Source: Aureimonas pseudogalii (GTDB lineage Bacteria > Pseudomonadota > Alphaproteobacteria > Rhizobiales > Rhizobiaceae). From it: DNA of 64,000 nt. Shown piece after piece: positions 2,746 to 64,000 of this stretch. Location: contig NZ_JACIEK010000001.1 of the NCBI RefSeq assembly GCF_014196835.1, forward strand, positions 1,004,283 through 1,068,282, read 5' to 3'. Every line of letters starts with the position of its first letter. Within the stretch, counting starts at the first letter, position 1. The notes below the pieces were generated by a model that saw nothing but the letters and a program-made list of their open reading frames with translations, searched no databases and was not told the origin of the DNA. The position numbers and the translations under genes were made by a program.

Positions 2746-2749
2746 CCCC

Positions 2750-46157: not shown

Positions 46158-46241
46158 GGGTTACAGGGGGTTACAGAGCGATACAAGACGGACAGATTGT
46201 CCGTTAAATATCAGCCTCTTGTACGGTACGAGGGGTTACTG
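46158..46241. repeat. Direct repeats GGGTTAC(A/T)G, candidate integrase arm sites
   Basis: Three copies of GGGTTAC(A/T)G start at 46158, 46168 and 46233 between the attachment fragment and the integrase start. The first two are one helical turn apart. Short repeats in this position are typical arm-type binding sites of tyrosine integrases. The repeats are seen; the function is inferred. Confidence 0.4.
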
Positions 46242-46247
46242 GTAGGT

Positions 46248-48034: not shown

Positions 48035-48042
48035 GTTACCTA

Positions 48043-48109
48043 TATACGGGCGTACGGGACGCTCATGTTCACTTTGTCGACTGACAAAGAGGACACTGTG
48101 AACATGAGC
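48043..48109 (+). promoter_or_regulatory. Promoter and nested inverted-repeat operator of the excisionase-like gene
   Basis: A perfect 12-bp inverted repeat (48061-48072 with 48098-48109) brackets a second inverted repeat, TTTGTC-N4-GACAAA (48073-48078 with 48083-48088). A TATATA -10-like box lies at about 48043-48048. The right outer arm covers the start codon of the following helix-turn-helix gene, so binding there would block transcription or translation. Autoregulation by that protein is the simplest reading. Confidence 0.55.
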
Positions 48110-48355
48110 GATACCCGCCCCAACATTTTCTCACGCTTGGCGAAGGCCGGCGTTCCCGACATCTCAACTTTGCCGGACGAAGCGCTTCTTTCCCGTCGGC
48201 AGCTCGCAGGCCTAACTGGCTATACCGAGCAGGCACTCCGGAAGTGGACCAAGCAGGGCCGAGGGCCCAAGACGGTCTATTTGGAAGGTCGACCCCGAAC
48301 GACCGTTAAGGCCTATCGCGAATGGGTCGCCGGCGCGCAGCAGGTGTCGGCATGA
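48104..48355 (+). CDS. Excisionase-like helix-turn-helix protein
   Basis: An 83-residue DNA-binding protein starting MSDTRPNIFSRLAKAGVPDI. The C-terminal half is a winged helix of the AlpA/MerR-like excisionase type: LLSRRQLAGLTGYTEQALRK then WTKQGRGPKTVYLEGRPRTT. An in-frame ATG at 48065 would place the operator repeats inside the coding region, so I prefer 48104. Proteins of this type direct excision or regulate the integrase. The next gene overlaps its stop codon. Confidence 0.75.
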   Translation: MSDTRPNIFSRLAKAGVPDISTLPDEALLSRRQLAGLTGYTEQALRKWTKQGRGPKTVYLEGRPRTTVKAYREWVAGAQQVSA

Positions 48356-49302: not shown

Positions 49303-49390
49303 GCGGCACGCATGCCAACAACACACGACCCTGAAACAGAAACGGCGCCGGGCGGGTTCGAGCCGCCGGCGCCGCAGAAAGGCATGTGCG

Positions 49391-51697
49391 ATGAGCACTT
49401 TAGCGCAGAGTGACCCGTCAGGGAAGCCTTCATCCTCGGTCCCGTTCGGTGACTACCTCGCCAGCGAAACCAACATCTCGTCGCCGGCTGATCCCTTTCA
49501 GCACTTCTGGCAACTCGGGTATCGGACGCTGCTGCCGATCATTCCCCCGACCGCCGAACTGCACGAACGCAGCGCCTTCGCCCGCAACCTCGCGCGAGGG
49601 CGAGATGATCGCGGCAAGGTGCCAGGCATTCGCGGTCGCGACGGCAAATGGTTTGGCCTGAAGGACTGGCAGACGCGTTCGACGACGGAAGAGGAGCTCG
49701 CCGACTGGTCGCAGATGGGGGCCGGTGTTGGATTGGCTGACGACGGTGGTCTCGTCCTCGTCGACATCGACGCCCGCGACGAGGCCACCGCCGATGCGAT
49801 CGAACAGGACGCGCTCGCGATCTTGGGCCCTGCGCCGTTGCGGGTTGGAGATCGGCCGAAACGCGCGCTCGTCTATCAGAGCGAGACGACGGCCACCTTT
49901 CAGGTCGTTACCTTCGAAGGCTCGAAAGGCGAGGACCGCGTCGAGATCCTGGCTAAACCAAAGCAGATGGTCATCCACGGCATTCACCGGAAGACCGGAC
50001 GGCCGTACGAGTGGACCCGTCCCCTGACAGCTCGTTCCGAACTAACGAAAGTCACGCCCGAGCAGGTCACACAGTTTCTGGAGGAGGTGCGGTCGAAGCT
50101 GCCGCGCGCGCGTCGTCATGATGCTGGAGCGGTATCCGATCGCTCCAACGTCGACCAAAGGGGCCTCAAGGGCGACATCGAACGCGTCCGCAAGGCCGTC
50201 GCGTCGCTTCCCAATACGCGCGACCTCTTCCCCCACTACAGTGACATGATCCGCGTCGGCGAGGCGATACACGGCGCGACAGTCGACGATCCCGCGGCTG
50301 GCGCCGAGATTTTTGACGCGTGGTGCAGCCGTTGGGAAGGCGGCGATTACGATCCGGACCTGACCGACGCACGATGGTCGACGTTTAAGAGCCCGCATTC
50401 GGTTGGTGCCGATTACCTCGCGAACTTGGCCGTGAAGCATTCCGGCGGTGTCTTCACCGACGCCGAGCGGTGGTTCGACGTAGAAGCCGGCAAGACCGCC
50501 GCGACCGAGAACGAGAAGGCGGCGAGTGCCGCGGCGGCCCGGTTCGCCTTCGAGGACTTCGACGATCTCGCTGCCGACGCGACGGGACAGACGGCCTCGC
50601 CGCTCGTCAAAGGCCTCCTCGACCAAGGCGCCATGTCGGTCCTCTACGGCGAGAGCAACAGCGGCAAGACCTTCGTCATGTTGGATCTGGCGTTCCATGT
50701 CGCGACCGGCCGACCCTGGTCGGGATTGAAGACGACCCCCATGCTCGTCGTCTATGTCGCCGCGGAAGGCGGACGCGGCTTCGCCAAGCGCGTGGCCGCC
50801 CTCAAGAGCCGTTACGGCTGCGTTTCCGCGGTCGATCTCAAGGTGTTGCGCTCGCAAGTCGACCTGCTGCGAGCCGAGGCCGACCTGAAGCCGCTGATCG
50901 CAGCGCTGAGAGGTTTGGGCCGGCCGATCGGCTTCCTCGTCATCGACACGCTCTCGCGCGCCATGGCAGGCGGCGACGAGAACTCGTCGGTCGATATGGG
51001 CGCGACGGTCAAGCATCTCGACGCGCTTCGCGCAGCGACGGGAGCCCATCTCGCGGTCGTCCACCATTCCGGCAAGAACCCTGCGAAGGGTGCGCGCGGC
51101 CACTCCCTCTTGCGGGCGGCCACCGACACCGAGATCGAGATCGCCGACGGCGAGATCATCGTCACGAAGCAGCGCGACCTCGAGCGAAGCTTCCGCAAGT
51201 CCTTCGTCCTCGATGGCGTTACGCTTGGCGTCGATGACGATGGCGACCCTGTGACATCCGCCACCGTCCGCGTCCTGGATCGGCCCGACGATGATCAGGC
51301 CCAGGCGCCGACGGCCGAAGAGATCGAACGTCGCGAGCGAGTGGCGAGGGCTGCTTGCCGGGCCATGAAAGGCCAGACGACGGCGAAGCTCGCCGGGCTT
51401 GTTTCCGCTCTCACGGTCGAGCTGAAACGGGAGCGGGTCGTCAGCGGAGCGTCGCTGCCGACAGTGCGAGCGCTTCTTGTCGCTGCCCTCGGCGACGGGG
51501 TCGAAGTCGAATGTAACGGACAAGTTGTCCGAATGGAGATCCGACAGGACGGTTCGGGTCCGAAAGCTCCATGGCTGATCGTCGCTTCCAGAGTGCCAAG
51601 GGAAACGAAAATCAGCATCGACGAGAGCAGTTCGGACAATCTGTCTGGTGAGTTTTCGGCCGATGAAAGGCTTAAAAGCAGCGGGGTCTTTGCATGA
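49391..51697 (+). CDS. Primase-polymerase/RepA-like ATPase fusion (element replication protein)
   Basis: The 768-residue protein joins an N-terminal primase-polymerase-like domain (about residues 40-230; metal-binding pattern GLVLVDIDARDEAT and a nearby KAL/KLxxR region), a middle PriCT-like helical region (IRVGEAIHGATVDDPAAGAE), and a RecA-like ATPase of the RepA/AAA_25 class. Its Walker A is YGESNSGKTFVMLDLAFHVA, Walker B is IGFLVIDTLSRAMAGGDENS, and the VVHHSGKNPAKGARGHSLLR block is typical. Such proteins prime and unwind DNA at the element's own origin. The AT-rich repeats that follow could be that origin. Confidence 0.85.
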   Translation: MSTLAQSDPSGKPSSSVPFGDYLASETNISSPADPFQHFWQLGYRTLLPIIPPTAELHERSAFARNLARGRDDRGKVPGIRGRDGKWFGLKDWQTRSTTEEELADWSQMGAGVGLADDGGLVLVDIDARDEATADAIEQDALAILGPAPLRVGDRPKRALVYQSETTATFQVVTFEGSKGEDRVEILAKPKQMVIHGIHRKTGRPYEWTRPLTARSELTKVTPEQVTQFLEEVRSKLPRARRHDAGAVSDRSNVDQRGLKGDIERVRKAVASLPNTRDLFPHYSDMIRVGEAIHGATVDDPAAGAEIFDAWCSRWEGGDYDPDLTDARWSTFKSPHSVGADYLANLAVKHSGGVFTDAERWFDVEAGKTAATENEKAASAAAARFAFEDFDDLAADATGQTASPLVKGLLDQGAMSVLYGESNSGKTFVMLDLAFHVATGRPWSGLKTTPMLVVYVAAEGGRGFAKRVAALKSRYGCVSAVDLKVLRSQVDLLRAEADLKPLIAALRGLGRPIGFLVIDTLSRAMAGGDENSSVDMGATVKHLDALRAATGAHLAVVHHSGKNPAKGARGHSLLRAATDTEIEIADGEIIVTKQRDLERSFRKSFVLDGVTLGVDDDGDPVTSATVRVLDRPDDDQAQAPTAEEIERRERVARAACRAMKGQTTAKLAGLVSALTVELKRERVVSGASLPTVRALLVAALGDGVEVECNGQVVRMEIRQDGSGPKAPWLIVASRVPRETKISIDESSSDNLSGEFSADERLKSSGVFA

Positions 51698-51951
51698 CTT
51701 ACATCGTTGATAATAAAGAGTTTTTTGGAACAAAAAATCCGATGAAAGCGATGAAAGCTGGCCTTTCACTTTTTTCAGAAAAATTCATCAACGAAATCAA
51801 CGATGTAAGCTTGAAAGCTTTGAAAGCCCCTACGGGGAGCTGCCGCCGCTTTCATCGGCGGGCGGCAGTTCCCGGATCGCGTTGGGGTCGGACGGAAGCA
51901 AGGCCAAACGCGATACCTCACGAGAGCCGTTTCAGAAAGCTGGGCTCGTGA
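51694..51951 (+). CDS. Possible small protein overlapping the repeat region
   Basis: An 85-codon frame whose ATG overlaps the stop of the primase gene (ATGA). It starts MTYIVDNKEFFGTKNPMKAM. The first 45 codons lie in AT-rich DNA made of TGAAAGC repeats, and the rest crosses a strong hairpin. The coupling favours a real start, but the repeats and hairpin suggest that this DNA serves as a control region instead. Low confidence. Confidence 0.3.
   Translation: MTYIVDNKEFFGTKNPMKAMKAGLSLFSEKFINEINDVSLKALKAPTGSCRRFHRRAAVPGSRWGRTEARPNAIPHESRFRKLGS
51742..51828. repeat. Iteron-like 9-bp repeats, candidate replication origin
   Basis: Two tandem pairs of a 9-bp repeat with the core TGAAAGC occur at 51742-51759 and 51811-51828, and an inverted copy lies at 51848-51854. 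The DNA between them is very AT-rich in an otherwise GC-rich element. Tandem short repeats plus an AT-rich segment directly behind a replication gene is the layout of many plasmid and satellite origins. This function is inferred. Confidence 0.45.
51835..51873. terminator. Strong hairpin after the repeat region
   Basis: A 13-bp stem (51835-51847 with 51861-51873, one G-T pair) and a 13-nt loop that contains the inverted TGAAAGC copy. It could terminate the replication operon or act in the origin, for example as a single-strand initiation site. No T run follows. Confidence 0.5.
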
Positions 51952-52541
51952 GCACCGGCGGGCAGAAAAACCGAACGGATGGTCGGTCGACGGCAGAGGC
52001 GAAGGCTCGAGCCCGCGAGATCATCAAAGATTTTAACCGGCGCCGGCACCTCGCGCCGACATGCGGGGCCACCTGTCGGACGACCGGCGAACCCTGCCAG
52101 AATTTGGCGATGTCGAACGGCCGGTGTCGGCTCCATGGTGGCGCGACGACGAAGGCCGCAGGATGGCATCGCCCGCGCTGGCCCGATGGAACGGCACACG
52201 ATGCCGTCGATCGAGCCGACCGGAAAACGGCGGACCTTCAGAAGCGAGCCCGCAAGCAGAAGCAGCGGGTCGCGCAAATGTCGCCTGAGGAGCGAACCGC
52301 ACACAAGGCTTGGCAGGTCGCCCATGCGCCTGGCAACCCCGCAGAGCGCGCCCGGCGTCGCGCTGAGCGAAAGGCCGCGGCGGACGCGCGCCGGCTCCTG
52401 ACAGGCAGAGGAGAGCCGAAACCCGTCAATGCCGAGCAGCGGGCCCTCCTCGACGCCGTCGCGGCCGGCGAGGCGCGTTTGACCGAGCTGCGGCATGAGG
52501 CCGAGCTTGCCGAGCATTGGGGTAAAGGGGTGTTCGGATGA
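51948..52541 (+). CDS. Phage-type HGG zinc-motif protein
   Basis: A 197-residue basic protein from the GTG at 51948; a TTG further upstream is possible. It holds the motif CGATCRTTGEPCQNLAMSN, then GRCRLHGGATTKAAG, a Cys/His arrangement seen in small phage-encoded proteins with the C..TG.PC...GRCRLHGG pattern that often sit near packaging genes. The remainder is a Lys/Arg-rich helical region (KTADLQKRARKQKQRVAQMS) likely to bind nucleic acid. The following gene overlaps its stop (ATGA). Confidence 0.65.
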   Translation: MSTGGQKNRTDGRSTAEAKARAREIIKDFNRRRHLAPTCGATCRTTGEPCQNLAMSNGRCRLHGGATTKAAGWHRPRWPDGTAHDAVDRADRKTADLQKRARKQKQRVAQMSPEERTAHKAWQVAHAPGNPAERARRRAERKAAADARRLLTGRGEPKPVNAEQRALLDAVAAGEARLTELRHEAELAEHWGKGVFG

Positions 52542-52849
52542 TCAATGACGACGATGACGCGAGCTTGGCCGCGCTGCGCAAGAGGGCCGAGCGCCGAGCG
52601 ATCGAAAAGGGTCTTGAAATGCTCGACGATCCCAAGGTCAAGGACACGGCACGCGCCTCGGTCGTCCGCGCATTTCTCGGCGACGCCATCCAGCGCCGAG
52701 GCGAGGATGACGCGAACCTCGAGCCTCACGAGATGTCTGCCGCACAGGTCGAAGCGGGCGCGCGGAGGGCTCTGGTTCAGCTCGAATTGATCCGTCGCGA
52801 GGCCGACGACGCCGAGATCGTCCCGGCGCCCCGCGGCGTCTTCGATTAG
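52538..52849 (+). CDS. Small acidic hypothetical protein of the element
   Basis: A 103-residue protein starting MINDDDDASLAALRKRAERR, probably helical throughout. It is coupled to the HGG-motif gene. Its last 4 nt overlap the end of the convergent serine recombinase gene. No family is recognised. The pairing of a basic Cys/His protein with a small helical protein resembles small packaging-type gene pairs in phages, but this is speculation. Confidence 0.55.
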   Translation: MINDDDDASLAALRKRAERRAIEKGLEMLDDPKVKDTARASVVRAFLGDAIQRRGEDDANLEPHEMSAAQVEAGARRALVQLELIRREADDAEIVPAPRGVFD

Positions 52850-53418
52850 GCCGCCTTTTTCTGCATGAGACGGTAGACGCTGGCACGCCCGATGCCGAGG
52901 CTTCTGGCGATCTCCGTCGCGCCTGCACCCGCGGCCATCATCTCGCGGACACGGGCAACGTCGATCGACGGTTTGCGGCCCTTATAGACGCCTTCGGCCT
53001 TCGCCCTGGCGATGCCCTCCATCTGCCGCTCACGACGGATCGCCGTTTCGAACTCGGCGAACACGCCGAGCATCTGGAGGAAGGCACGGCCGGCGGCGGT
53101 GGCCGTGTCGACCGGCTGCTCCGTCGCCCTGAGCGCGATCCCCTGCGCCTCGAGCGTGCGGACGATCGCGGCGAGATCTGCGATGGAGCGCGCCAGACGG
53201 TCGATGCGGGTTACGACGATCGTGTCGCCCTCATGCGCGAAGTCGATCAGGGTCTGGAGGGCGTCGCGGCCTTTGGTCGTCGTGCCAGTTTTCTTTTCGG
53301 ATCTGACGACGGTGCAGCCGGCAGCGCGCAGGGCCTCCTCTTGGATCGCGAGATCCTGATCCGAGGTCGAGACGCGAGCGTATCCGTAGAGGTGGCCGGT
53401 CTTTGTGCTCTTCGTCAT
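52846..53418 (-). CDS. Serine recombinase (resolvase/invertase family)
   Basis: The 190-residue protein has the catalytic serine in YGYARVSTSDQDLAIQEEAL, the conserved arginine region IVVTRIDRLARSIADLAAIV, the long E helix (AFLQMLGVFAEFETAIRRER) and a C-terminal Hin-type helix-turn-helix (ATEIARSLGIGRASVYRLMQ). It acts on supercoiled DNA to resolve or invert segments. Its gene runs against the surrounding genes, and its upstream region holds repeats resembling a resolution site. Length is standard for the Tn3-resolvase/Gin group. Confidence 0.92.
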   Translation of the reverse strand: MTKSTKTGHLYGYARVSTSDQDLAIQEEALRAAGCTVVRSEKKTGTTTKGRDALQTLIDFAHEGDTIVVTRIDRLARSIADLAAIVRTLEAQGIALRATEQPVDTATAAGRAFLQMLGVFAEFETAIRRERQMEGIARAKAEGVYKGRKPSIDVARVREMMAAGAGATEIARSLGIGRASVYRLMQKKAA

Positions 53419-53430
53419 GCCATCACCCTC

Positions 53431-53553
53431 TGTATCGTCTCGTTAGCCTCTAGACCCTTTTCCCGTATCGTCTCGAAAGCGCAAACGCAACCCATATGAG
53501 ACGCTAAAACTGTCTCAACAGCCCGCCTCGCTGGCGTATACCCATATGAGGCA
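53431..53553. repeat. Repeat cluster upstream of the recombinase, candidate res site
   Basis: The region contains GTATCGTCTCG twice (starting 53432 and 53465), its core inverted as GAGACG (53498-53503), TGTCTCA near 53511, and CCCATATGAG twice (53491 and 53540). The GTCTC/GAGAC half-sites face each other across about 23 bp. Repeated half-sites just upstream of a resolvase gene are the usual form of res sites. The region also serves as the upstream region of hicA. Function is inferred. Confidence 0.5.
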
Positions 53554-53560
53554 CCTACGC

Positions 53561-53595
53561 TTGACCCACGCAGTTCCGTGTGTATCTATACACAC
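53561..53595 (+). promoter_or_regulatory. hicAB promoter and palindromic operator
   Basis: A TTGACC -35-like box (53561-53566) and a TATCTA -10-like box (53583-53588) with 16-bp spacing. A perfect 7-bp inverted repeat, GTGTGTA-TCTA-TACACAC (53578-53584 with 53589-53595), covers the -10 box and ends at the hicA start codon. HicB antitoxins often carry a DNA-binding domain and repress their own operon, so this is a likely operator. Confidence 0.55.
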
Positions 53596-53784
53596 ATGAA
53601 CAGCCGAGCCGTCATCGCTGCGCTAGAAGCCGACGGCTGGTTCGAGGTGAACCGGGTCGGGAGCCACGCGCAGTTCAAGCATCCGGCCAAGCCGGGCCGC
53701 GTGACGGTCCCGCATCCGAAGCGGGATCTGCCGATCGGCACGCTCCGCAGTATCGAGAAGCAGTCCGGCATCAAACTGAGGTAA
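53596..53784 (+). CDS. hicA: HicA toxin (mRNA interferase)
   Basis: A 62-residue protein starting MNSRAVIAALEADGWFEVNR, with the HicA core GSHAQFKHPAKPGRVTVPHP, which contains the catalytic His, and the end LPIGTLRSIEKQSGIKLR. It has the double-stranded RNA-binding-like fold and cleaves mRNA when freed from HicB. No Shine-Dalgarno is present, and the predicted transcription start is close to the ATG, so the mRNA may be leaderless. The antitoxin gene follows 2 nt after the stop. Confidence 0.93.
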   Translation: MNSRAVIAALEADGWFEVNRVGSHAQFKHPAKPGRVTVPHPKRDLPIGTLRSIEKQSGIKLR

Positions 53785-53786
53785 CC

Positions 53787-54179
53787 ATGTCCAGCTATAT
53801 CGCGCTCATCCACAAGGACGCCGACAGCGACTACGGCGTGTCCTTCCCCGATCTTCCCGGCTGCGTCACTGCCGGCACTGATCTCGACGATGCGCGCGCC
53901 ATGGCAGCCGAAGCCCTGGCTCTGCATCTGGCCGGCATGGCCGAGGAAGGGGAGGCCATTCCCGAGCCCTCGTCGCTCGAGACAGTGATGGCCGATCCCG
54001 AGAACCGGGACGGGGTTGCTATCCTTGTGCAGGCCCCGGCTCGGGCGCGGAAGATCGTGCGCGTGAATATCACCCTCGCCGAGGACGAGCTTGCCGCGAT
54101 CGACGCCAAGGCCGAGGCGGCCGGCATGACGCGCTCGGGCTTCCTAGCGCGTGCGGCGCGCGCCCTCGAGGCAGCCTGA
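53787..54179 (+). CDS. hicB: HicB antitoxin
   Basis: A 130-residue antitoxin starting MSSYIALIHKDADSDYGVSF. The HicB core is PDLPGCVTAGTDLDDARAMA followed by EALALHLAGMAEEGEAIPEP. The C-terminal ribbon-helix-helix domain (RVNITLAEDELAAIDAKAEA, then GMTRSGFLARAARAL) should bind the operator upstream of hicA. The order toxin then antitoxin is the usual one for this family. Confidence 0.93.
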   Translation: MSSYIALIHKDADSDYGVSFPDLPGCVTAGTDLDDARAMAAEALALHLAGMAEEGEAIPEPSSLETVMADPENRDGVAILVQAPARARKIVRVNITLAEDELAAIDAKAEAAGMTRSGFLARAARALEAA

Positions 54180-54475
54180 GACACCGGCCCGCACCCCGCC
54201 ACCTGGCCGATCCGCCCCCTGCCGGGTAGTCCGAACGCTCTGGTGGTGGCGGCATCGGACCCGCGAAGAAATTTGCGCCGGTCAGAAACTTTGGGCTCAT
54301 CGAAAATATTCCGCGAGCCGAACCGTCCATAACCCCCTGTATACTTCTGTAGCTCATCGCAAAAACGGCCTCAAAACTCGCCATTCGCCGCATCCGATGC
54401 TACATTTAGGCCTAAGAAGCGTGCGCCTGTTCTTCTCTCGACTGGCCGCGCGATAAGGGCTTTGAGGGCAGACGG
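54180..54475. other. Intergenic stretch without a recognisable gene
   Basis: About 296 nt between hicB and the next phage-like gene. It is moderately AT-rich in its second half and may hold the promoter of the following three-gene run. No convincing reading frame, tRNA or repeat was found. Confidence 0.45.
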
Positions 54476-55057
54476 ATGATCGAAGCCAGTCACACATCCG
54501 AAGACGCATCGTCGTCCGCGAAGGACAGCTTCCTGAGCGTGACCGCCCTGCTGGGGTTCGGTCCGCCCATTCCGGCTGGCAGCTCGCCCGACCTTGCACT
54601 GGAGTGGGCCGGCTTGTGCTTCCGAACTGCCGCCGCAGGTGAGGACGTCGCCAGCAACGTCGTCCGCGGCCTTCGCACTCTTCTCAGTGCGCTTCCCCGC
54701 GGCGATCTCGGCAAGGCCTCCGGATCGCTTCTCGGCGAAGTCGATGCGGCCGTCTGCGCCGCGATCCCGGTGCTGCTCCAGAAGCTCCCGCGCGGCGTAT
54801 CCGACTTCTCGAGCTGCATGGGCATGGCGTCGGCGGCTTGGATCCTTCGCGCATTGCGGGATCCCCCGAAGGGCGAGCTGACCGGTGCGTGGTCGGCCTA
54901 CTTCGCAGAGCGCCTGGATTACGTCGCTCTTCTCGCTGACGAGCTCGACGCCGCCGTTCGGCGCCAGCGCATCAACGACGGCGGCGATCTCGTGCAGCGG
55001 ACGCTCCAACTCCAGCGCGCCGAGGCGGCCACCGCCGACGGCGCCGCGTCGCACTGA
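54476..55057 (+). CDS. Hypothetical phage-like protein
   Basis: A 193-residue, mostly helical protein starting MIEASHTSEDASSSAKDSFL. It is 11 nt upstream of the large internal-protein-like gene and runs in the same direction. Its central part (ASNVVRGLRTLLSALPRGDL) and a later helix (AYFAERLDYVALLADELDAA) suggest a structural or assembly helper. No family is recognised. Confidence 0.55.
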   Translation: MIEASHTSEDASSSAKDSFLSVTALLGFGPPIPAGSSPDLALEWAGLCFRTAAAGEDVASNVVRGLRTLLSALPRGDLGKASGSLLGEVDAAVCAAIPVLLQKLPRGVSDFSSCMGMASAAWILRALRDPPKGELTGAWSAYFAERLDYVALLADELDAAVRRQRINDGGDLVQRTLQLQRAEAATADGAASH

Positions 55058-55068
55058 GGAGGCCGACG

Positions 55069-56619
55069 ATGCCGATAAAATCCAATCGCTTCTACAACGA
55101 TCCGAACATCGGGGCCGCTTTCGAGAACATCGCGTCGATCTTCGCGCCGCCGAGCGCGCAGGACACGTACGCTTACGCCAAGGCCAAGGCCGAGCGTGAG
55201 GAAGCCGCCCGCGCCGAAGAGGCCTTCCGCCAGATGACGGCCGAAGGCGCGGCGCCCGAGCAAGTCGATCGCTTCGGCGTCGCGATCGGCCGGTTCAATC
55301 CGACGCAGAGCTACCGGGCGCTCGAGATGGGCGACGCGACGTTGCGCCGGGATCAGGACATCCAAAGCGGCGATCGGCGTTACAGCGCCGACAAGACGTC
55401 GCTCTCGGCTCTCTACGGTCACGATCGGACGTACCAGTCCTCCGTCGAGAACAACGTCCGAGACAATGCCCGCTCGATGGCGACCAACGAGGCGGACAAC
55501 GCTCGCTCGCTCGCAACGAACGGTGCCGACAATGCGCGAGCCATCGAAGATCGCCGGATGCAGGAGGAAGGAGCTCTCGCGCGCTTCTACGCCGCGCCCG
55601 TCACCGTGAAGCAGGGCGAACGCGCGTTCCTACCGGGTCAGACGGCCGCCGCGACGGGTCTGCCGGCGCAGCTTCAGGGCAGCGAAGCGCCCCTGTCGAC
55701 CGACGAGGTCGCTGCGCTGGCGATGCAGTCGATGCCCTCGGCGGATCGTGAGCAGTTCGTTCGTGACAAGTTCGCCCCGACCGACAGTCAGGTTCAGGGA
55801 CAGGAGCGGCGCGAGCTTCGGTCGAGCGGCTTCCTGTCCGATGATGACCTGAAGGCCACCATCATGGGCAGCGTCCCGGTCGAGGAGGCAATCGGCCCGA
55901 ACGGCCAACCGCAGTTCGTCCGCCGCACCGACGCGGTCGGGATGCGCCCGGCGCCGAAGGCACCGATGGTCAACGTCAACACGGGCGAGGCCGCGGACGG
56001 CAAGCTCCGCGGCAAGCTCGACGAGAGCGAGGGCAAGCGGCTCTCCGACCTCCAGGCCTCGGCGGTGACGTCGGCGGGCCTGCGACAGGATCTCGGTCTG
56101 ATGGATCAGCTCATCGACCAGGCCCCGCAGGGTCCGCTCGTCGGGCGTCTCGCCACGCTGTTCCCCGGCGTCTCCAATGCGGGCACGGCCTTCCAGTCGC
56201 TCGTCGAGCGGGCCGCACCGGGCCTGCGCGTCGAAGGCTCCGGCGCCACATCCGACATCGAGTTCCGCGGCATGCTGAACAGCCTGCCGCAGCTCCGCAA
56301 CCGCCCGGAGGCGAACCGCCTCATCGCCGGTATGATGAAGGCCAAGGCCGACATCAACATCCGCCGCGGCGATCTGGTGACGGCCTACCAGAACGGCGAC
56401 ATCGATGCCTCGCAGATGCGCCGGCAGCTCGCCGACCTGAACCGGCAGAGCATCGTGTCGCCCGAGCTGACGGCGATGATCGAAGCCGTCGGCGGCGGTG
56501 CGGCGCCGGTGTCCGCGACCGACACCGGATCTGCCGCTCCCTCGCCCGGCTCGATCGTCGACGGGCATCGGTTCCGCGGCGGCGATCCCTCCGATGCCGC
56601 CAACTGGGAGGCGCTGTGA
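55069..56619 (+). CDS. Phage internal/ejection-like protein 1
   Basis: A 516-residue protein starting MPIKSNRFYNDPNIGAAFEN. The opening Asn/Phe-rich segment and the following alanine-rich coiled coil (YAYAKAKAEREEAARAEEAF) resemble internal virion or DNA-ejection proteins of podovirus-like phages. A short internal repeat appears at about residues 125-155 (DNARSMATNEADNARSLATN, then DNARAIE). The C-terminal third is helical and ends in a Pro/Ser linker. Nearby capsid or portal genes are absent, so the assignment rests on sequence style and on pairing with the next gene. It overlaps the next start (TGATG). Confidence 0.5.
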   Translation: MPIKSNRFYNDPNIGAAFENIASIFAPPSAQDTYAYAKAKAEREEAARAEEAFRQMTAEGAAPEQVDRFGVAIGRFNPTQSYRALEMGDATLRRDQDIQSGDRRYSADKTSLSALYGHDRTYQSSVENNVRDNARSMATNEADNARSLATNGADNARAIEDRRMQEEGALARFYAAPVTVKQGERAFLPGQTAAATGLPAQLQGSEAPLSTDEVAALAMQSMPSADREQFVRDKFAPTDSQVQGQERRELRSSGFLSDDDLKATIMGSVPVEEAIGPNGQPQFVRRTDAVGMRPAPKAPMVNVNTGEAADGKLRGKLDESEGKRLSDLQASAVTSAGLRQDLGLMDQLIDQAPQGPLVGRLATLFPGVSNAGTAFQSLVERAAPGLRVEGSGATSDIEFRGMLNSLPQLRNRPEANRLIAGMMKAKADINIRRGDLVTAYQNGDIDASQMRRQLADLNRQSIVSPELTAMIEAVGGGAAPVSATDTGSAAPSPGSIVDGHRFRGGDPSDAANWEAL

Positions 56620-58787
56620 TGGCCGGTCCCTGGGAGAAGTACCAGAAGCCGGCGGCGACCGAGGCAGCACCGTCCGCGGGACCGTCCGCCGGTCCGTGGA
56701 CGCGCTACGCGCCGGAGGCCCGCTCGGCCCCGAGCTTCGTCACGCCCGAACCGCCGCCCGGCGTCGTCGTCCATGGTGGTGATGGCCGGTCCTACGTTGC
56801 GGACAAGCCAGCGATCGGCGTCCAGCGGACCGCTGCGGCCGGCTCGCGCGATGAAGCGATCCAGATGCAGGCTCTCCAGGGCCGCGGCGCCACAGACGGT
56901 ATCGTCGGCGACGTGACGCGCGCGGCGCAGCCGTTCGCGCAGGGGCAGAGCCTCAACTTCGGCGACGAGTTCGTGTCGACCGTCCTGGCGGCGATCGAGG
57001 GCGTCCAGGGCCGATCGACGAAGGACGCCTTCGACTACGGGCAGGAATTCCAACGCCAGGAGCTCGAGCGCCGGCGCGCCGAAGCCCCGCTGACGTCCAT
57101 GGCGTCGGAGCTGGCCGGCGGCGTCGCGACGGGCATCGCCGCGGCCCCGAAGGTCTTCGCGTCCGGTGCCGGGCTCGGCGCCAACGTGCTGCGCGGCGGC
57201 CTGACCGGTGCCGCGGCCGGCGGGGCCTCCGGGTTCGGCGGTGGCTCCGGGCTCGAGGACCGCGCGTCCGACGCGCTCACCGGCGCCGGCATCGGCGCGG
57301 GCGTCGGTGTGGCCGCTCCGCTCGCCGGCGCCGCGGTCGGTGCGGGTGTGCGAGCCTACGGCGCACGCAACGCAGCGCGCGAGATCCTGGAGCCCGTCGG
57401 CATCGGCCGGCGCGCCGCGGACCAGATCGAGACCGAACTGACGCGCGACGGCATGAGCGCGGCCGACGCCCGCACGCGTGCGAGCCAGATGGGGCCCGAC
57501 GCCATGCTGCTCGACGTCGGCCAGAACGTCGGCGAAGGCGCCGAGGCGGTGGCGAACCTGCCGGGCGCCGGCAACGGGACCGTACGCGACCGGCTCGGCG
57601 CGCGCGGCCGCGGTGCGCCCGACCGCATCACCGCCGCCGCAGACGCCGCGATCGGCCCTCAGGGCAACATGGCCGAGACGGTGGACGACCTCATCGCCAG
57701 CCGCTCGGCGGCGAGCCGCCCGCTCTACGACCGAGCGCTCGGCCAGCCCATCGAATGGAACGACCGGCTCCAGTCCTTCATCGACGATCCCGTCGTTCGC
57801 AAGGGCCTGCGCGAGGGCGTCGACATCCAGCGGCTCGAGGCGCTGGCCCGCAACGAGCCGTTCAACCCGCTCGACTTCGCGGTGACGGGCTTCGACGAGG
57901 CCGGCGACCCGATCATCACGGGCGTCCCGAACATGCGGACCCTGAACGTCGCCAAGAAGGGGATCGACAACATCCTCGAGAGCTACCGCGACCCGACGTC
58001 GGGCCGGCTGAACCTCGACGAGCGCGGCCGCGCCATCACGGAGGTCCAGCGGGCCTTCGTCGACCAGCTCGACGCCTCCAACCCAGACTACGCCGCCGCG
58101 CGCGCTGCGTGGGCCGGGCCGACGCGGGTCCGCAATGCCTTGGCGCTCGGGCAAGGCACGTTCGATCGATCGGTCCGGCCCGATCAGCTTCGCCAGCGGC
58201 TCGCGGCGATGTCCGACGACGAGCGCGACGCCTTCCGCATCGGCGCTCGCGACCAGCTCGACGAGGTGATGGGAACGGCCCGGCGCGATGCCGCCGCGGC
58301 GCGCGGCATGTTCGAAACCGGGTGGAACCGCGAGAAGCTCGGGCTCGTGCTCGGCGGCGACGACCAAGCCGCCGCCTTCCTCGACACGCTCGGCAACGAG
58401 ACGGCCTTCGCCAACCGGGCGAACACCATCACAGGCAACACGGCCACCGCCCGCCGGATCGAGCGGCAGAAGGAATACAACGGCACGCGGTCTGCGGCGC
58501 GCGAGACCTTCGACCCGACGAGCGGCATGTGGGGCGATGCGAAGCGCGTCGCCGCCCGCGGCTTGGACGCCCTTCTGGACGGTCGCAACGTCCGCAGCGC
58601 CGAACAGATGCGCGGCGAGTTCGGCGACGCCGTCTCCCGCCAAGGCACCGATCGCGACGCGCTCGTCGACGCGATCATGGGCTACGGCCAGCGCAAGACC
58701 GCGGCGGCGGACCGCGCGGTGCCCTACGAAGACATGATCCGCGCCATCATGGCAGGCGGCGGTTTGGCGATGACGGGCGATCGCTAA
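56619..58787 (+). CDS. Phage internal/ejection-like protein 2 with glycine-zipper region
   Basis: A 722-residue protein. A proline-rich N-terminal section (MAGPWEKYQKPAATEAAPSA) is followed by a Gly/Ala-rich membrane-seeking region at about residues 165-245 (GGLTGAAAGGASGFGGGSGL and GAGIGAGVGVAAPLAGAAVG), a glycine-zipper pattern found in DNA-ejection proteins and pore formers. The long helical C-terminal part contains the phrase ASNPDYAAARAAWAGPTRVR, which I associate with large hypothetical phage proteins. The last residues, GGGLAMTGDR, are duplicated in a diverged form at 60176. Role in DNA delivery is inferred. Confidence 0.5.
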   Translation: MAGPWEKYQKPAATEAAPSAGPSAGPWTRYAPEARSAPSFVTPEPPPGVVVHGGDGRSYVADKPAIGVQRTAAAGSRDEAIQMQALQGRGATDGIVGDVTRAAQPFAQGQSLNFGDEFVSTVLAAIEGVQGRSTKDAFDYGQEFQRQELERRRAEAPLTSMASELAGGVATGIAAAPKVFASGAGLGANVLRGGLTGAAAGGASGFGGGSGLEDRASDALTGAGIGAGVGVAAPLAGAAVGAGVRAYGARNAAREILEPVGIGRRAADQIETELTRDGMSAADARTRASQMGPDAMLLDVGQNVGEGAEAVANLPGAGNGTVRDRLGARGRGAPDRITAAADAAIGPQGNMAETVDDLIASRSAASRPLYDRALGQPIEWNDRLQSFIDDPVVRKGLREGVDIQRLEALARNEPFNPLDFAVTGFDEAGDPIITGVPNMRTLNVAKKGIDNILESYRDPTSGRLNLDERGRAITEVQRAFVDQLDASNPDYAAARAAWAGPTRVRNALALGQGTFDRSVRPDQLRQRLAAMSDDERDAFRIGARDQLDEVMGTARRDAAAARGMFETGWNREKLGLVLGGDDQAAAFLDTLGNETAFANRANTITGNTATARRIERQKEYNGTRSAARETFDPTSGMWGDAKRVAARGLDALLDGRNVRSAEQMRGEFGDAVSRQGTDRDALVDAIMGYGQRKTAAADRAVPYEDMIRAIMAGGGLAMTGDR

Positions 58788-59098: not shown

Positions 59099-60103
59099 AT
59101 GTCAATTGCTTACCCGTCGGGCAGCACTCAACGCGACGCCTCCGCAGCTCTGCACGCGCGGATCAACGGCATCGACATGTTCCGCTTCCTAGCGGTCGTC
59201 GGAGTGGTCTTCATCCATGCCAGCGATAAGACGACGATCGGGAATGCGCTGGATCTCGCGTCCCGGTTCGGCGTGCCATTCTTCTTCGTCGTTGCCGGGT
59301 ACTTCGCGGGGTTGAAGCCGAAGCTGTCGTTTCTAAGCGAGGTGCGACATGTCGGCAAGCGCATCATCGGGCCATATCTCGTGTGGCTTGCGCTCTATGC
59401 GGTTTATTCAGGATACGACTTCTCGAATTTGCTCAGCATCCGGGGCTTGGCACTCCTGTTCGTTTATGCCGGACCTGGGTGGCACCTATGGTTTCTGACG
59501 TCGTTGGCGTTCAGCGTGATGATGCTGGCGATCCTTCGCCGCCTGTGTGAGCTTCGAACCCTCGTAGGGCTAGCGATCGTCGTCTACATTGCCGGGCTGG
59601 CGATCGGACCTTATGCACGTATTGTCTTCTCGATCGCTAACCTCAGCATTCACCCCCGCAACGGGCTGTTTCTGGGATTTCCGTTCATGGTTATGGGGTA
59701 CTGGGTCGGTCGGAACAGGTGGAACGGACGGCCGTTCTCGACCGGCGCATTGCTATATTTCGGCGGCTTCATGCTGACGATCGGCGAAGTCTACGGGCTG
59801 TCCAGGCTGCCTGGAGGTGTGAACTACGATGTCCTTCTCGGGACGGTACCGATGGCGGCAGGCGCCTTTATCATGGCCCTTCGGCTGCCTGACATTCCGA
59901 TGACGCGTCACGTATCCAACCTCGGTCGCTACAGCTTGGGGATCTTCGCCAGCCATCTCGCCATCATGTTTGAGGTTCAGCGGTTGTTGGCGGGAACGAC
60001 GATTTACACGGAGTTGGTCGTCGTCATCCTGACCGTTGCGGTGGCAAGCCTTTGCGCGCTCATCTTGGGACAGTTTCGACTGACCCGACCGCTGGTGCGC
60101 TAG
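59099..60103 (+). CDS. Acyltransferase-3 family membrane protein
   Basis: The 334-residue inner-membrane protein starts MSIAYPSGSTQRDASAALHA. About ten helices are visible. Family features include DMFRFLAVVGVVFIHASDKT, with the catalytic-type His, VPFFFVVAGYFAGLKPK and PGWHLWFLTSLAFSVMMLAI. These proteins transfer acyl groups, often acetyl, to sugars of O-antigen, capsule or exopolysaccharide. Phage-borne members change the surface antigen of the host. The gene has lower GC than the flanking phage-like genes and is enclosed by a duplicated gene end. Confidence 0.85.
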   Translation: MSIAYPSGSTQRDASAALHARINGIDMFRFLAVVGVVFIHASDKTTIGNALDLASRFGVPFFFVVAGYFAGLKPKLSFLSEVRHVGKRIIGPYLVWLALYAVYSGYDFSNLLSIRGLALLFVYAGPGWHLWFLTSLAFSVMMLAILRRLCELRTLVGLAIVVYIAGLAIGPYARIVFSIANLSIHPRNGLFLGFPFMVMGYWVGRNRWNGRPFSTGALLYFGGFMLTIGEVYGLSRLPGGVNYDVLLGTVPMAAGAFIMALRLPDIPMTRHVSNLGRYSLGIFASHLAIMFEVQRLLAGTTIYTELVVVILTVAVASLCALILGQFRLTRPLVR

Positions 60104-60450
60104 ATCAGCGGCTTGCCGCTATGGGAATGCGGTGGCCTCGATCCTTCCTGTACCGCTTCCCGCGCCAGCATAGCGGGCGGTTTGGCGATGACTGGTGATC
60201 GCTGACGTAGAAATGGAGCCCCGCGCGAACCAAGCCTTCAACGTGCTCGACGAGCTCGAGGACGAACACGCCGACCAGGATCCGACGGTTCGGGCAGCGA
60301 TGGCGCGTTGAGCGGACCGCTCGGGTGCCGCGGTGACGTCGAAGATCAGAGACGCTTTTGGCGTCCAACAGAACGCAACCGATGCATTCTCGAATTGCTC
60401 GATCACGTCCATTACTCTCCGGTAATATTTCAATCGGACACGATAAGAAT
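60104..60450. other. Cassette right flank with gene remnant and a tiny frame
   Basis: This 347-nt stretch contains the right copy of the duplicated gene end and, from about 60211 to 60312 on the plus strand, a 33-codon frame (MEPRANQAFNVLDELEDEHA and on) without a clear ribosome binding site. The rest shows no recognisable gene. It reads as recombination scar plus the promoter of the MucR-like gene. Confidence 0.45.
60161..60206 (+). pseudogene. 3'-end remnant of a homologue of the 722-residue phage-like gene (right copy of the duplication)
   Basis: Translated in frame it reads RASIAGGLAMTGDR and stop, against RAIMAGGGLAMTGDR at the end of the 722-residue protein. The nucleotide match is 28 of 31 over 60176-60206, with two synonymous differences in the coding part. 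So the fragment comes from a diverged homologue rather than from a recent copy of the left end. Confidence 0.7.
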
Positions 60451-60957
60451 ATGACCGACGAGCACAACGAAAAATCACTGCGGATCCAGCAGACCGCGGG
60501 GATCGTATCGGCCTACGTGAGCAACAACCACGTGCCGCGCGACGAGCTGGCGGCGCTGATCTCGACGGTGTTTGCGGCTCTTTCGCTCGAGACGACGGCA
60601 GAGCCGATCGAGGTCGAAGCCGCACAACTCGTTCCTGCCGTGTCGGTCAAGAAGTCGGTGACGCCCGACTATCTGGTCTGCCTGGAGGACGGAAAGCGGT
60701 TCAAGTCGCTGAAGCGCCACCTGATGACGCATTACGACCTAACGCCGAAGGAATACCGCCAGAAGTGGGGCCTACCGGACGATTACCCGATGGTGGCGGC
60801 GAGCTACGCGGCCAAGCGTTCCGAGCTCGCCAAGTCGTTCGGCCTCGGTCGCAAGGCAGCAAGTGCGCCGGAACCGGCGTCGGTCGCGGAGGAGACCGCG
60901 CCCAAGCGCCGGGCGTCCCGCAAGGCCAGCAGCGAGGTCGATGCCGAAGCGGCCTGA
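60451..60957 (+). CDS. MucR/Ros-family zinc-finger regulator
   Basis: A 168-residue regulator starting MTDEHNEKSLRIQQTAGIVS. The Ros-type zinc finger is in YLVCLEDGKRFKSLKRHLMT and the following H (pattern C-x2-D-x9-H-x3-H), then the family signature LTPKEYRQKWGLPDDYPMVA. The tail is basic (KRRASRKASSE). MucR proteins are global repressors with H-NS-like properties that control exopolysaccharide, motility and virulence genes in Rhizobiales. Carriage near a surface-modifying acyltransferase is suggestive. An element-borne copy may silence AT-rich neighbours such as the ATPase gene. Confidence 0.9.
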   Translation: MTDEHNEKSLRIQQTAGIVSAYVSNNHVPRDELAALISTVFAALSLETTAEPIEVEAAQLVPAVSVKKSVTPDYLVCLEDGKRFKSLKRHLMTHYDLTPKEYRQKWGLPDDYPMVAASYAAKRSELAKSFGLGRKAASAPEPASVAEETAPKRRASRKASSEVDAEAA

Positions 60958-61140
60958 TCGGATCAGGTGCGGCCTCGTCGATTACGAAGTGGTGAGGCAG
61001 CATCGGGCGTCCTCGACTGACGCCACATGCTTGCTTTTCGATCCTCGCCGGTGACCTTCTTCGGTCAGCCTTGAGATCGCTATATGACACCGCATCGATC
61101 ACGGCAGGAATATTTCGCTTCAAAAACTTTCAATGGTAGT

Positions 61141-62325
61141 CTAGTATTTTAATTTTGGCATCGCCCTTACCATGTATTCGTCGAACAATGGAACAGTGAA
61201 TGCCGTATCTCCGTGGGCGGGTGAATAAATCATACCCTTTTTAATCAGAGATGCTCTTGTTGGAGCTACACTATTGGATTTGACGCCAAGCGTCTCCGCA
61301 ATGTCTCCAGACCTATGCGGGCCGTCTCCAAATTTTGCAAGCGCTCGCATATATTTCTTCTCTGAGGGAGTGCATCTGTCAAATCGAACTTTGAAAAAGC
61401 TTTCATCTAAAGTTGAAATTGCATTGTTGTGTGCAATTGATACATCCCGTGCTCTTATGACTTTTCCGCTCGCAACGTTCCATGCTTCATATGCCCATTG
61501 CTGCAGGAAATATGGGTATCGTCCTGTAACGCTTAAGATTTGCTCGACTGCCGCTGGTTCGTAGGATACTCCTTCGTTTTTTGCTGGGTTTACAATCGCT
61601 TCGATCGCGAAATTATGCGCTAGGGCACCGATTTCAGGATATTTAAAAAGACGTTCAGCGTACGATTTAGAGTTGCCAGCTAAACCCAATATCTGCGGTA
61701 AGCCAGCTCCGATTAACACAATTGGCAGGTTCCCCTGCGAGGTACGGTGAAACGACATTATCAACGCACTGAATTCTTCGTGTGAAAGATATTGCAGTTC
61801 GTCTATTATTATAGCCACAGGTGTCTTAGCGTCTTTTGCTGCTTCCCCTAGCACAAGCAACAATTCAGGCAAGTCGGCCTCTATGCTCCCGCTATCCGCA
61901 GTACCTGTTTCAGGCTCAATAGTAAGTCCGACCTCTACATCATTTACGGAGACACGCAGCCCATTCAAGAAACTTTTCAGTACCCGAAGCCCCCTGCGTG
62001 CCTTATCCTTTGCGTTTTCGACTGTGCTCAACTTGAACAACGTCTGCCGTATACCAGGGACAAGCAGTTCTGGCAGCGTTTTACCCTCGTGCGCTTCAAC
62101 CGAAATTGTTCTAAACCCCTCCTTTTCAGCTATTTCTTTTACTTTGACGAGGAGAACGGTTTTCCCTACACCCCGCAGGCCGACTAAAATGGGGCTTTGG
62201 ACCGATCGACCCAACCTAATGCGTTGTAGTGCTACCCTTGTTGCGTCTATAACGTCGCTTCGACCCGCCAACTCAGGCGGCGGGCTTCCAGCTCCAGGAG
62301 CATAAGGATTTTTAACCGGATCCAT
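61141..62325 (-). CDS. ORC/Cdc6-like AAA ATPase on AT-rich DNA
   Basis: A 394-residue AAA+ protein. The N terminus (PPPELAGRSDVIDATRVALQ) and Walker A (PILVGLRGVGKTVLLVKVKE) are of the AAA_16/ORC type. Walker B is in VAIIIDELQYLSHEEFSALI and sensor 1 in LPIVLIGAGLPQILG. The C-terminal part has a winged helix (RSGDIAETLGVKSNSVAPTR). It may be a DNA-binding ATPase of a small mobile unit or a defence or replication regulator. GC content is far below all flanking DNA, showing foreign origin. A perfect 26-bp inverted repeat lies 8 bp before its start. Confidence 0.82.
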   Translation of the reverse strand: MDPVKNPYAPGAGSPPPELAGRSDVIDATRVALQRIRLGRSVQSPILVGLRGVGKTVLLVKVKEIAEKEGFRTISVEAHEGKTLPELLVPGIRQTLFKLSTVENAKDKARRGLRVLKSFLNGLRVSVNDVEVGLTIEPETGTADSGSIEADLPELLLVLGEAAKDAKTPVAIIIDELQYLSHEEFSALIMSFHRTSQGNLPIVLIGAGLPQILGLAGNSKSYAERLFKYPEIGALAHNFAIEAIVNPAKNEGVSYEPAAVEQILSVTGRYPYFLQQWAYEAWNVASGKVIRARDVSIAHNNAISTLDESFFKVRFDRCTPSEKKYMRALAKFGDGPHRSGDIAETLGVKSNSVAPTRASLIKKGMIYSPAHGDTAFTVPLFDEYMVRAMPKLKY

Positions 62326-62332
62326 GGTTGCA

Positions 62333-62392
62333 CCATACCTAGTTTATGCGTTTATAGCGACTTTCAGCTATAAACGCATAAACTAGGTATGG
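62333..62392. repeat. Perfect 26-bp inverted repeat upstream of the AAA ATPase gene
   Basis: The arms are 62333-62358 and 62367-62392, identical in inverted orientation over all 26 bp, with an 8-nt spacer (GACTTTCA). The arms are AT-rich and begin CCATACCTAGTTTATGCG. The repeat is 7 bp from the ATPase start codon, so it must overlap the leader or promoter. It could be an operator, a protein-binding origin, a hairpin or a transposon-type end. No second copy is seen in the window. Confidence 0.8.
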
Positions 62393-62587
62393 CATTCAAG
62401 CTCTTTCGTAGCTCACGGTGCACCGTCTGAGATGTTTGAGTGCCCTGGCCAGCGCCTTGCCGCCAAAGCGACGGTAAGCTCGTTCATAGTCGCTGCCGAC
62501 GTCGCATAGATCCCTGAGCACGACGCTGCACTTCGTACCGAGCCAACTTCGTTACCGCACGTAGCGCGTCGTGCTCTCTTCCCCGCA

Positions 62588-62885
62588 TGTGCAACCTCTA
62601 CTCGATCACCAAGGGCCAGACGGCGATCCGCGAGTTCACACGCTCGATGCGCGACACGACCGGCAACCTACCGTCGATGCCCGGCGTCTTTCCCGACACG
62701 ACGGCGCCGATCGCGCGCATGGGCCAGTGCATCCGAAGGCGATGCCGGTGATCCTGACAGACGTCGAGGAGATGGACGTGTGGATGCGAGCGCCGTGGAC
62801 CGAAGCCGCAGCGTTGCAAAAGCCCCTGCTGGATGGGGTGCTGACGATTGTAGCCAGGGGCGATAGGAAGGACGACGTCGAATGA
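62588..62885 (+). pseudogene. SRAP (YedK/HMCES-like) pseudogene with internal deletion
   Basis: The 5' part encodes the start of an SRAP protein, [20 protein letters not shown], including the catalytic Cys2, up to about residue 46 ([14 protein letters not shown]). Near 62725 the sequence jumps, in another frame, to the family C terminus ([20 protein letters not shown] and on, ending GDRKDDVE). Roughly 150 internal residues are missing. SRAP proteins shield abasic sites in single-stranded DNA. The gene cannot give a working product. Confidence 0.75.
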
Positions 62886-63043
62886 TGGACGGTGAAGAGG
62901 TCTACCGGACGCGGCTTGCAGAAGCTCTTGCGGCTGCGGAGCGCGAGACGCTGGAGCATGCGAAACGAAAACACCTGACCGCTGCGGCGGCTTGGCAGAC
63001 CCTCATCGATCTCGATATCGAACGTCGTGCTGAAAACGATTGA
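62882..63043 (+). CDS. Small helical hypothetical protein
   Basis: A 53-residue charged helical protein ([20 protein letters not shown], then [20 protein letters not shown]). Its ATG overlaps the stop of the SRAP remnant (AATGATGG context), suggesting it was once coupled to that gene. No family is recognised. Confidence 0.45.
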
Positions 63044-63187
63044 CCGTTGACGCTCAAAGCAGATCTAGACCTTACGCTATTCCAACACCTGACGATCACC
63101 AAGACGTTGGGACGGTTCCAAACTTGCTTAACCGTTCGGTAACGTCAGTCCCCCTTAAGTCCGATACCGGGCGGGAGACGGGACATA

Positions 63188-64000
63188 ATGCTGGTGGATA
63201 TTCAGACGATCGGCGTGCCCGCATTCGTCGTCGGCGTCGACGCGGACGGCAGCTTGCGAATGAAGTCGATCAACAAGGCCGATGAAGAAGCTACCGGCCT
63301 GCGCCTCTCAGACGTCGCCGACCGTCTTCTCGCCGACTGTCTGCCCACATCGATCGTGCCGCAGGTGACGGCCCGCTACAACGAATGCATCCAGAAGCGG
63401 ACGCTGCACGAATACGATGAGCGACTGGAGATACCGGGCAACACGCGCTGGTGGCGGACGACGCTGACGCCGATCATCGATGCCACGTCCGGACGCGTCG
63501 TTGAGCTCGTCGGCGTCGCGATCGAGATCACCGAACGCAAGAGATCGGAAGATCTGCTTGCGGAAGTCGCGTTCCAAGATCCGCTGACGAGCATTGCCAA
63601 CCGACGCCGGCTGGAGATCGACGTCGACGACGCAATGTCGGCGGCGTTGTACACAGGACGACGTTTTGGCTTGGTGCAGATCGACCTCGACGGCTTCAAG
63701 CCAATCAACGACAGGTACGGACATCGCAAAGGCGACGACGTGTTGCGTCACGTCGCCTCTTTGCTGAAGCTGATTGCTCGAAAAGACGAGACGGTCGCTC
63801 GCATTGGCGGCGACGAGTTCGCAATGCTGATCGGCGCCTCGACCGACCGGGAGTTTACAGCGAAGGTCGACGCGCTTCGTCGCTTTCTCGATCGCAGCAT
63901 GAGCATCGCCGAGATGGAGGTGAACGTCGGCGCGAGCGTCGGAGCAGCTATGTGGACGGGCGTCGAGACGTTCGAAGAGCTGTTGGCCGTTGCTGACGGG
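63188..64000 (+). CDS. PAS-GGDEF diguanylate cyclase, 3' end outside the window
   Basis: The frame runs 271 codons to the window end without a stop. It starts MLVDIQTIGVPAFVVGVDAD, has a PAS-like sensor (ending VELVGVAIEITERKRSEDLL) and a GGDEF domain with DPLTSIANRRRLEIDV, LVQIDLDGFKPINDRYGHRK and ARIGGDEFAML. Domain order and many phrases match the protein at 34293, so they are paralogues. The remaining C terminus should be only some 15-25 residues. No RxxD inhibitory site is visible. Confidence 0.88.
   Translation, partial: MLVDIQTIGVPAFVVGVDADGSLRMKSINKADEEATGLRLSDVADRLLADCLPTSIVPQVTARYNECIQKRTLHEYDERLEIPGNTRWWRTTLTPIIDATSGRVVELVGVAIEITERKRSEDLLAEVAFQDPLTSIANRRRLEIDVDDAMSAALYTGRRFGLVQIDLDGFKPINDRYGHRKGDDVLRHVASLLKLIARKDETVARIGGDEFAMLIGASTDREFTAKVDALRRFLDRSMSIAEMEVNVGASVGAAMWTGVETFEELLAVADG

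Follow-up and report, generated by a model that had tools for sequence, protein, structure and literature searches.

A recurrent dyad upstream of a solitary ORC-type ATPase gene is predicted to be its autoregulatory operator

A perfect inverted repeat with 26-bp arms lies directly upstream of a solitary ATPase gene in Aureimonas pseudogalii and is probably an autoregulatory operator bound by the ATPase itself. The gene and repeat were found in a 64,000-nucleotide stretch of contig NZ_JACIEK010000001.1, referred to in full as the window. An earlier note on this DNA had proposed three roles for the repeat: an autoregulatory site, an origin bound by the ORC-like protein, or one end of a one-gene mobile unit. 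Comparison with relatives supports the first, in that the dyad recurs in position, keeps its exact geometry in the near clade and is single in its genome.

Results

The inverted repeat and its surroundings

The ATPase gene occupies 61141..62325 on the minus strand, with its ATG at 62325-62323, and encodes a 394-aa ORC/Cdc6-STAND-type P-loop ATPase with a C-terminal winged helix. The inverted repeat spans 62333..62392 and is composed of two 26-nt arms, 62333-62358 and 62367-62392, which are 100% complementary and lie 8 nt apart. It is separated from the ATG by the 7 bp at 62326..62332 (minus strand). These coordinates agree with the layout given in the earlier note, and the length of the arms is well beyond chance. 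In 20 Markov-1 simulated windows, perfect inverted repeats with a spacer of up to 30 had arms of at most 13 bp, whereas the eight longest perfect inverted repeats of the real window are all the 62333-62392 repeat. The proposed operator is the dyad core at 62344..62381, TTA-N5-TTATA-N12-TATAA-N5-TAA, and the outer 11 bp of each arm lie outside this shared core.

The ATPase gene is AT-rich against GC-rich surroundings, as the earlier note had described. GC is 0.468 at 61001-62000, the region of the gene, compared with 0.620 in the kilobase to the left and 0.573 then 0.596 to the right, the 0.573 kilobase including part of the gene; the remaining window has a GC of 0.59-0.77. AT-richness is no family rule, since gene GC falls more than 5 points under that of the flanks in 37 of 94 loci.

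An 81-bp query spanning the site matches itself alone in the 5.0-Mb genome, and a search with an 18-bp arm, allowing 3 mismatches, still returns a single site. The site therefore serves the ATPase gene alone in this genome. There is no long direct repeat at 60000-63500 of the window. A promoter scan of 61000-62500 found no sigma-70-like promoter at the site, so overlap between operator and promoter is assumed from position.

Two other features of the window lie close by. A remnant of an SRAP gene lies at 62571-62885 and starts MCNLYS at 62587; compared with the full-length copy at L165, elsewhere in this genome, an internal stretch of about 360 bp is deleted. PF02586 SRAP is matched by both full-length copies, those of L164 and L165; the 54-aa piece has no Pfam match. 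An apparent integrated element at 46197-58787 holds a phage-type integrase, a prim-pol/helicase, a DNA-invertase-like recombinase and a large phage-family protein (phrog_5880). The ATPase gene is about 2.4 kb beyond it.

The ATPase has an ORC-type fold

In Pfam searches the ATPase exceeds the cut-offs of PF13191 (AAA_16) and PF13401 (AAA_22), and its best families are general AAA domains. It scores below the cut-off of PF01637 (ATPase_2; 19.7 vs 33.2 bits) and far below that of the orc1/cdc6 model TIGR02928 (21.3 vs 181.3 bits). Matches in NCBIfam and PADLOC are weak, and PHROGs gives an unnamed family, phrog_6841 (E 2.4e-9). The Pfam, NCBIfam and PHROGs profile searches gave no match to a transposase or recombinase family.

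The AlphaFold model, built from 40 aligned sequences (mean pLDDT 91.4), contains the AAA+ core and C-terminal winged helix of the ORC fold. By the secondary structure of the model, the winged helix covers residues about 318-381, encoded at 61183..61374 on the minus strand. Helix 350-362 is presumed from its position to be the recognition helix. The best Foldseek match is the archaeal Cdc6/Orc1 structure 2qby (E 8.1e-11, TM 0.50), and 1fnn and 2v1u are also matched, with 13-16% identity in these Orc1/Cdc6 matches. The TM value means that the domain arrangement agrees with the ORC fold in part only. Among the 50 matches listed, the STAND-type archaeal ATPase 2qen has the highest query-normalised TM, 0.58. 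The description of the protein as ORC-like in the earlier note thus holds for the fold and not for identity as an Orc1/Cdc6 initiator. GLRGVGKT and DE-x-Q are invariant in both alignments of the family, A1 and A2, as are Y270 and P271. This YP pair is reminiscent of the STAND GxP motif.

The site recurs upstream of relatives

We sampled 95 upstream regions, the final 90-110 nt ahead of the start codon, from relatives scoring more than 200 bits. Identical upstreams were collapsed, the window's copy and some broken copies are included, and loci without a readable upstream (for example L011, L059, L089 and L124) and a partial match (L024) were left out. Measured against 100 dinucleotide shuffles, an inverted repeat was significant at p<0.05 in 53/95 regions and at p<=0.01 in 39/95. 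With protein redundancy removed at 80%, the significant repeat persisted in 46 of 83 regions; among remote relatives it was found in 2 of 14. Significant repeats are seen in seven phyla (Pseudomonadota, Eremiobacterota, Acidobacteriota, Verrucomicrobiota, Actinomycetota, Chloroflexota and Planctomycetota) and in plasmid and viral-contig members, such as L034, L039, L113 and L115. In the Sumerlaeota upstream and both Chlamydiota upstreams examined, the inverted repeat was not significant against shuffles. The earlier note had named homologues regularly lacking the repeat as an observation that would tell against its reading. The nearest relatives keep the repeat, and further out 42 of the 95 regions are without a significant one. 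A dyad-symmetric site directly upstream is thus conserved with the gene, exactly in the near clade and in part beyond it.

Short words are shared as well. A motif learner drifted into AT-rich noise and was replaced by k-mers and spacing. The heptamer GAGTTTA occurs 41 times in the 95 upstreams against 1.0 in shuffled sequence, and AGTTTAT 39 times against 2.8. Per region, GAGTTTA is found 0.43 times upstream, 0.03 times downstream and 0.00-0.01 times in three other regions, which are GC-richer. Four regions (L038, L080, L129 and L151) have none of the five half-site pentamers described below. In one of these, L080 (G668), the gene begins about 30 bp beyond an upstream reading frame.

Long perfect arms of different sequence occur at L043 (23 bp) and L004 (21 bp). 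We suspect that such arms arise by template-switch correction of a near-palindrome. Remote relatives on viral contigs, L137-L145, are 23-25% identical and have a related AT-rich dyad upstream; against shuffles the dyad is significant in L138 and not in L137 and L139.

Half-sites are spaced by helical steps

Five half-site pentamers were picked after k-mer inspection of the same sequences, so the following counts are partly circular. Same-strand half-sites lie 9-10 bp apart in 86 pairs, 19-20 bp apart in 44 and 29-30 bp apart in 23, against 23 pairs over all distances of 12-18 bp combined. At least one pair at 9-10 bp is present in 50/95 regions. The recurring steps place the half-sites on one face of the helix. 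Orientation is also ordered, with 130 of 185 coding-strand pentamers at −70 to −31 and 117 of 166 opposite-strand pentamers at −40 to the start.

One member of this set stands apart. About 100 nt upstream of position 5001 in L017 (Brytella acorum), the site is a tandem array of 10-bp GGTTTAGTAT units without an inverted repeat, possibly a variable-number switch. Dropping this array leaves 78, 36 and 16 pairs at 9-10, 19-20 and 29-30 bp.

The window's own clade has a different step, of 8 bp rather than 9-10 bp, in the core described above. This template, with its 12-bp spacer, is exact in 10/95 upstream regions including the window's copy, and is matched within 3 mismatches in 19/95. Because the template was read off the same sites, a spacer scan and shuffles are the sole controls for these counts: other spacers from 6 to 18 gave 0-5 matches, and among ten shuffled sets one had 2 matches and the others had none. 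Exact copies of the template are present in each of the nine relatives closest to the window's protein within the set, at 60-74% identity. The tenth no longer fits: of the relatives that follow, L123, L075 and L072 have five mismatches each and L026 has one; L024, outside the set and 63% identical over a 73-residue fragment, is off at 7/16 positions. The ten aligned near-clade sites share TTA, TATA, TATAA and TAA without exception; their 12-bp spacer is variable. A second geometry, with a 7-bp gap and a 7-bp spacer, is found within 3 mismatches in 16/95 upstreams.

This pattern bears on whether the repeat instead acts in RNA, as a hairpin in the 5′ leader serving as an attenuator or translation block. 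The strand does fold strongly, at −47.7 kcal/mol (z −11.25), and the stem would stop right ahead of the ATG. However, the near clade keeps the TTA and TATAA letters and the 12-bp distance while leaving the inner spacer free, and pairing is merely partial in many relatives. Direct repeats of the half-sites, at steps of 9-10 bp, are found as well, and the L017 array lacks an inverted repeat. Together, these features make an RNA hairpin improbable.

The ATPase is the most likely binder

The winged helix makes the ATPase the most likely natural binder of the site. We compared upstream k-mer likeness with the likeness of protein regions over 93 proteins (4095 of 4278 pairs). Given the ATPase domain, upstream likeness correlates weakly with the helix region of the winged helix (partial r 0.14), a value reached in 1 of 500 permutations. 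The reverse, the ATPase domain given the helix region, gives 0.11 (7/500 permutations). The pentamers GTTTA and GTATA associate with winged-helix columns more than with other columns, which is not the case for GTTAT and CTTAT. This co-variation lends weak support to the ATPase as binder.

The weakness of the co-variation leaves room for a real operator bound by another, host-encoded regulator, as the role of the ATPase as binder is itself an inference. Against such a regulator, the significant repeat occurs in seven phyla, on plasmids and on viral contigs, and the site is single in its own genome. One regulator would hardly track the gene so widely, and no single gene family co-travels with it at the loci inspected. 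We consider a host regulator unlikely, and binding by the ATPase itself remains the preferred reading.

The neighbors of the gene were also surveyed. They vary among the plasmid records inspected, with no single accompanying family. Toxin-antitoxin genes adjoin the gene in 3/14 plasmid records and ParA/ParB lie nearby in 3/14; one of the 14, CP080432, carries no annotation, and a fifteenth record comes from the phage collection. Across 19 genome stretches, no Pfam family is present in more than 2 of 106 neighbor proteins.

A defence island was considered and rejected. The 106 proteins around the gene in the 19 loci were compared with 114 from elsewhere on the same contigs, giving 44 PADLOC families near the gene and 9 elsewhere at E<=1e-10. 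A single protein lies behind each of the 44 families, or two in the case of mad3, and PbeC and DndD models make up nearly all of the best 25 of the 44. With so few proteins behind the matches, an excess of defence genes is neither claimable nor excludable. Pfam families near the gene (best 25 of 104) and elsewhere (best 25 of 132) are mainly ordinary metabolic ones. The ATPase itself has no clear match to a known anti-phage defence model in PADLOC (best mad8, E 0.0027).

The gene is widely and patchily distributed

Relatives were found at 22 loci in one genome collection, spanning nine phyla as taken from record titles and in some cases from the genus name, at 36 viral-contig loci and in 114 of 72,556 plasmid records. 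In 40 of the 114 plasmid records, the annotation of the gene, where there is one, goes no further than ATP-binding protein, ATPase, AAA family ATPase or hypothetical protein. Matches were found in 8/101 relatives' genomes, 29/397 of the order, 30/385 of the class and 16/398 of the phylum; these counts overlap and take in the window's own genome and partial or weak matches. Within the genus, 2 of 21 genomes carry the gene, the window's own included. This patchy spread is typical of a gene that moves horizontally. A phage origin was rejected, as the sole match in 50,697 phage records is MT837995. This record (L038), titled 'Bacteriophage sp.', has ORFs that by eye are ordinary bacterial ones and is probably a mislabelled bacterial contig.

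The plasmid relatives bear on the proposal that the repeat is a replication origin for an ORC-like initiator. The fold closest to Cdc6/Orc1 and the 114 plasmid records fit an origin, and half-sites at helical steps presumably resemble initiator boxes. On the other hand, relatives also sit on chromosomes and contigs amid ordinary metabolic genes, on viral contigs and in an integron cassette. Five of the plasmids inspected carry another replicon type, and the common unit in several pairs is little beyond operator and ORF. The origin reading of the earlier note is left without support, and we regard it as exceedingly improbable.

Operator and ORF move together in several pairs

In several close pairs, operator and ORF move as one unit. 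DNA likeness extends from −129 to +1 in L033/L114 (93%), from −97 to +6 in L085/L086 (90.6%) and from −91 to +113 in L115/L118 (91.6%), in each case within different surroundings. Longer common flanks are found in L073/L074, L121/L126 (656 bp upstream) and L137/L141, and in near-identical contigs.

The copy in Vibrio sp. HDW18 (L173) is read as an integron cassette. Gene and upstream region lie between 129-nt repeats at 3764-3892 and 5256-5384, and the repeat has five copies in 9 kb. We take it to be a VCR-like attC. Neighbors are annotated as DUF3709, DUF3024 and a putative phage abortive infection protein. Of the 12 other genes annotated in the 9 kb, 10 face the opposite way to the ATPase gene, which therefore probably needs its own promoter.

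We sought the flanks of the window, G668, G133 and G014 in 61, 26, 3 and 20 genomes, respectively, and found no clean empty site or target duplication for these four loci. In G262, a sister of G133, the gene is missing at a point where two blocks have been rearranged; likeness to G133 stops 145 bp before the ATG and returns 28 bp past the stop codon. In another sister of G133, G360 (L245), the gene copy is broken by internal gaps within the same flanks as the intact G133 copy, which is decay in place. At the position where G014 carries the ATPase, its sister genome G005 (L246) has an unrelated 451-aa ORF without a Pfam match, at 2168-3523. The outer pieces around it are the same as in G014, with the same spacing, making this position an exchangeable slot.

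In favor of the repeat as one end of a one-gene transposon-like unit, likeness between close copies in different surroundings stops near the operator and the stop codon in several pairs. Against it, there is no matching downstream repeat, GAGTTTA being nearly confined to the upstream side; no transposase or recombinase family is matched; and the genomes searched held no clean empty site flanked by a target duplication. In the form given by the earlier note, the mobile-unit end does not hold, the motif being nearly absent from the far side of the gene; what stands is that operator and ORF travel together in several pairs. We judge a transposon end very improbable. The origin and transposon-end readings both lack their defining features and are disfavoured.

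Discussion

The evidence is best explained by an operator through which the ATPase probably controls its own gene. Two mirror-image pairs of half-sites, TTA-N5-TTATA facing TATAA-N5-TAA with 12 bp between them, would lie in the promoter and early leader region. The ATPase would act as a symmetric oligomer, contacting this dyad with its C-terminal winged helix and keeping its own expression low. Its nucleotide state may toggle binding, with ATP acting as the switch. We infer the ATPase as the bound protein, repression by binding and control by ATP.

What the gene does for its carrier is a more tentative matter. It may be a single-gene protective or selfish cargo, acting against other mobile elements or under stress. 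A broader, speculative proposal is that a family of solitary ORC/STAND-type ATPases crosses phyla as a minimal unit of operator and ORF, on plasmids, prophages and integron cassettes. In this proposal, the phased half-sites could nucleate an ATP-dependent, initiator-like oligomer that keeps the gene silent, and a signal, either an invading element or stress, would lift this silencing. If true, this would be a self-wired single-gene switch made from replication-initiator parts.

Autoregulation through a dyad operator is ordinary; for a solitary ORC-fold ATPase using one, we found no described precedent. A literature search judged by title or abstract opening returned no paper treating such a solitary ATPase gene. 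Nor is the family rare, as the class genomes show, and the recurrent site gives a handle on whether an ORC-type ATPase can be a free-standing, nucleotide-switched repressor.

Several known systems share parts of this arrangement. Self-promoted integron cassettes of toxin-antitoxin type exist, and the Vibrio sp. HDW18 copy is alike in having gene and upstream region between its 129-bp repeats. It differs in being one gene without an antitoxin-like partner, and it is the sole relative shown as a cassette. STAND NTPases of the archaeal ATPase_2 kind (PABY2304, 2qen) come close in fold by the 2qen match; the window's ATPase differs in having 394 aa only, in lacking long C-terminal sensor repeats and in its PF01637 score below the cut-off.

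ORC/Cdc6-type ATPases are also components of multi-gene conflict systems (PMC12839542, PMC10853773). BrxC, SspC and the HerA-coupled ORC proteins belong to the same ATPase clade; of these, BrxC and the HerA-coupled proteins also contain a winged helix (PMC10853773, PMC12839542). They work in multi-gene operons, whereas the window's ATPase gene is solitary and its PADLOC matches are weak. The archaeal Orc1/Cdc6 initiators matched by structure are alike in having an AAA+ ATPase core followed by a winged helix. The window's ATPase differs from them in its low identity and in its TIGR02928 score, and it has no origin link; its gene stands alone and has the site directly at its start.
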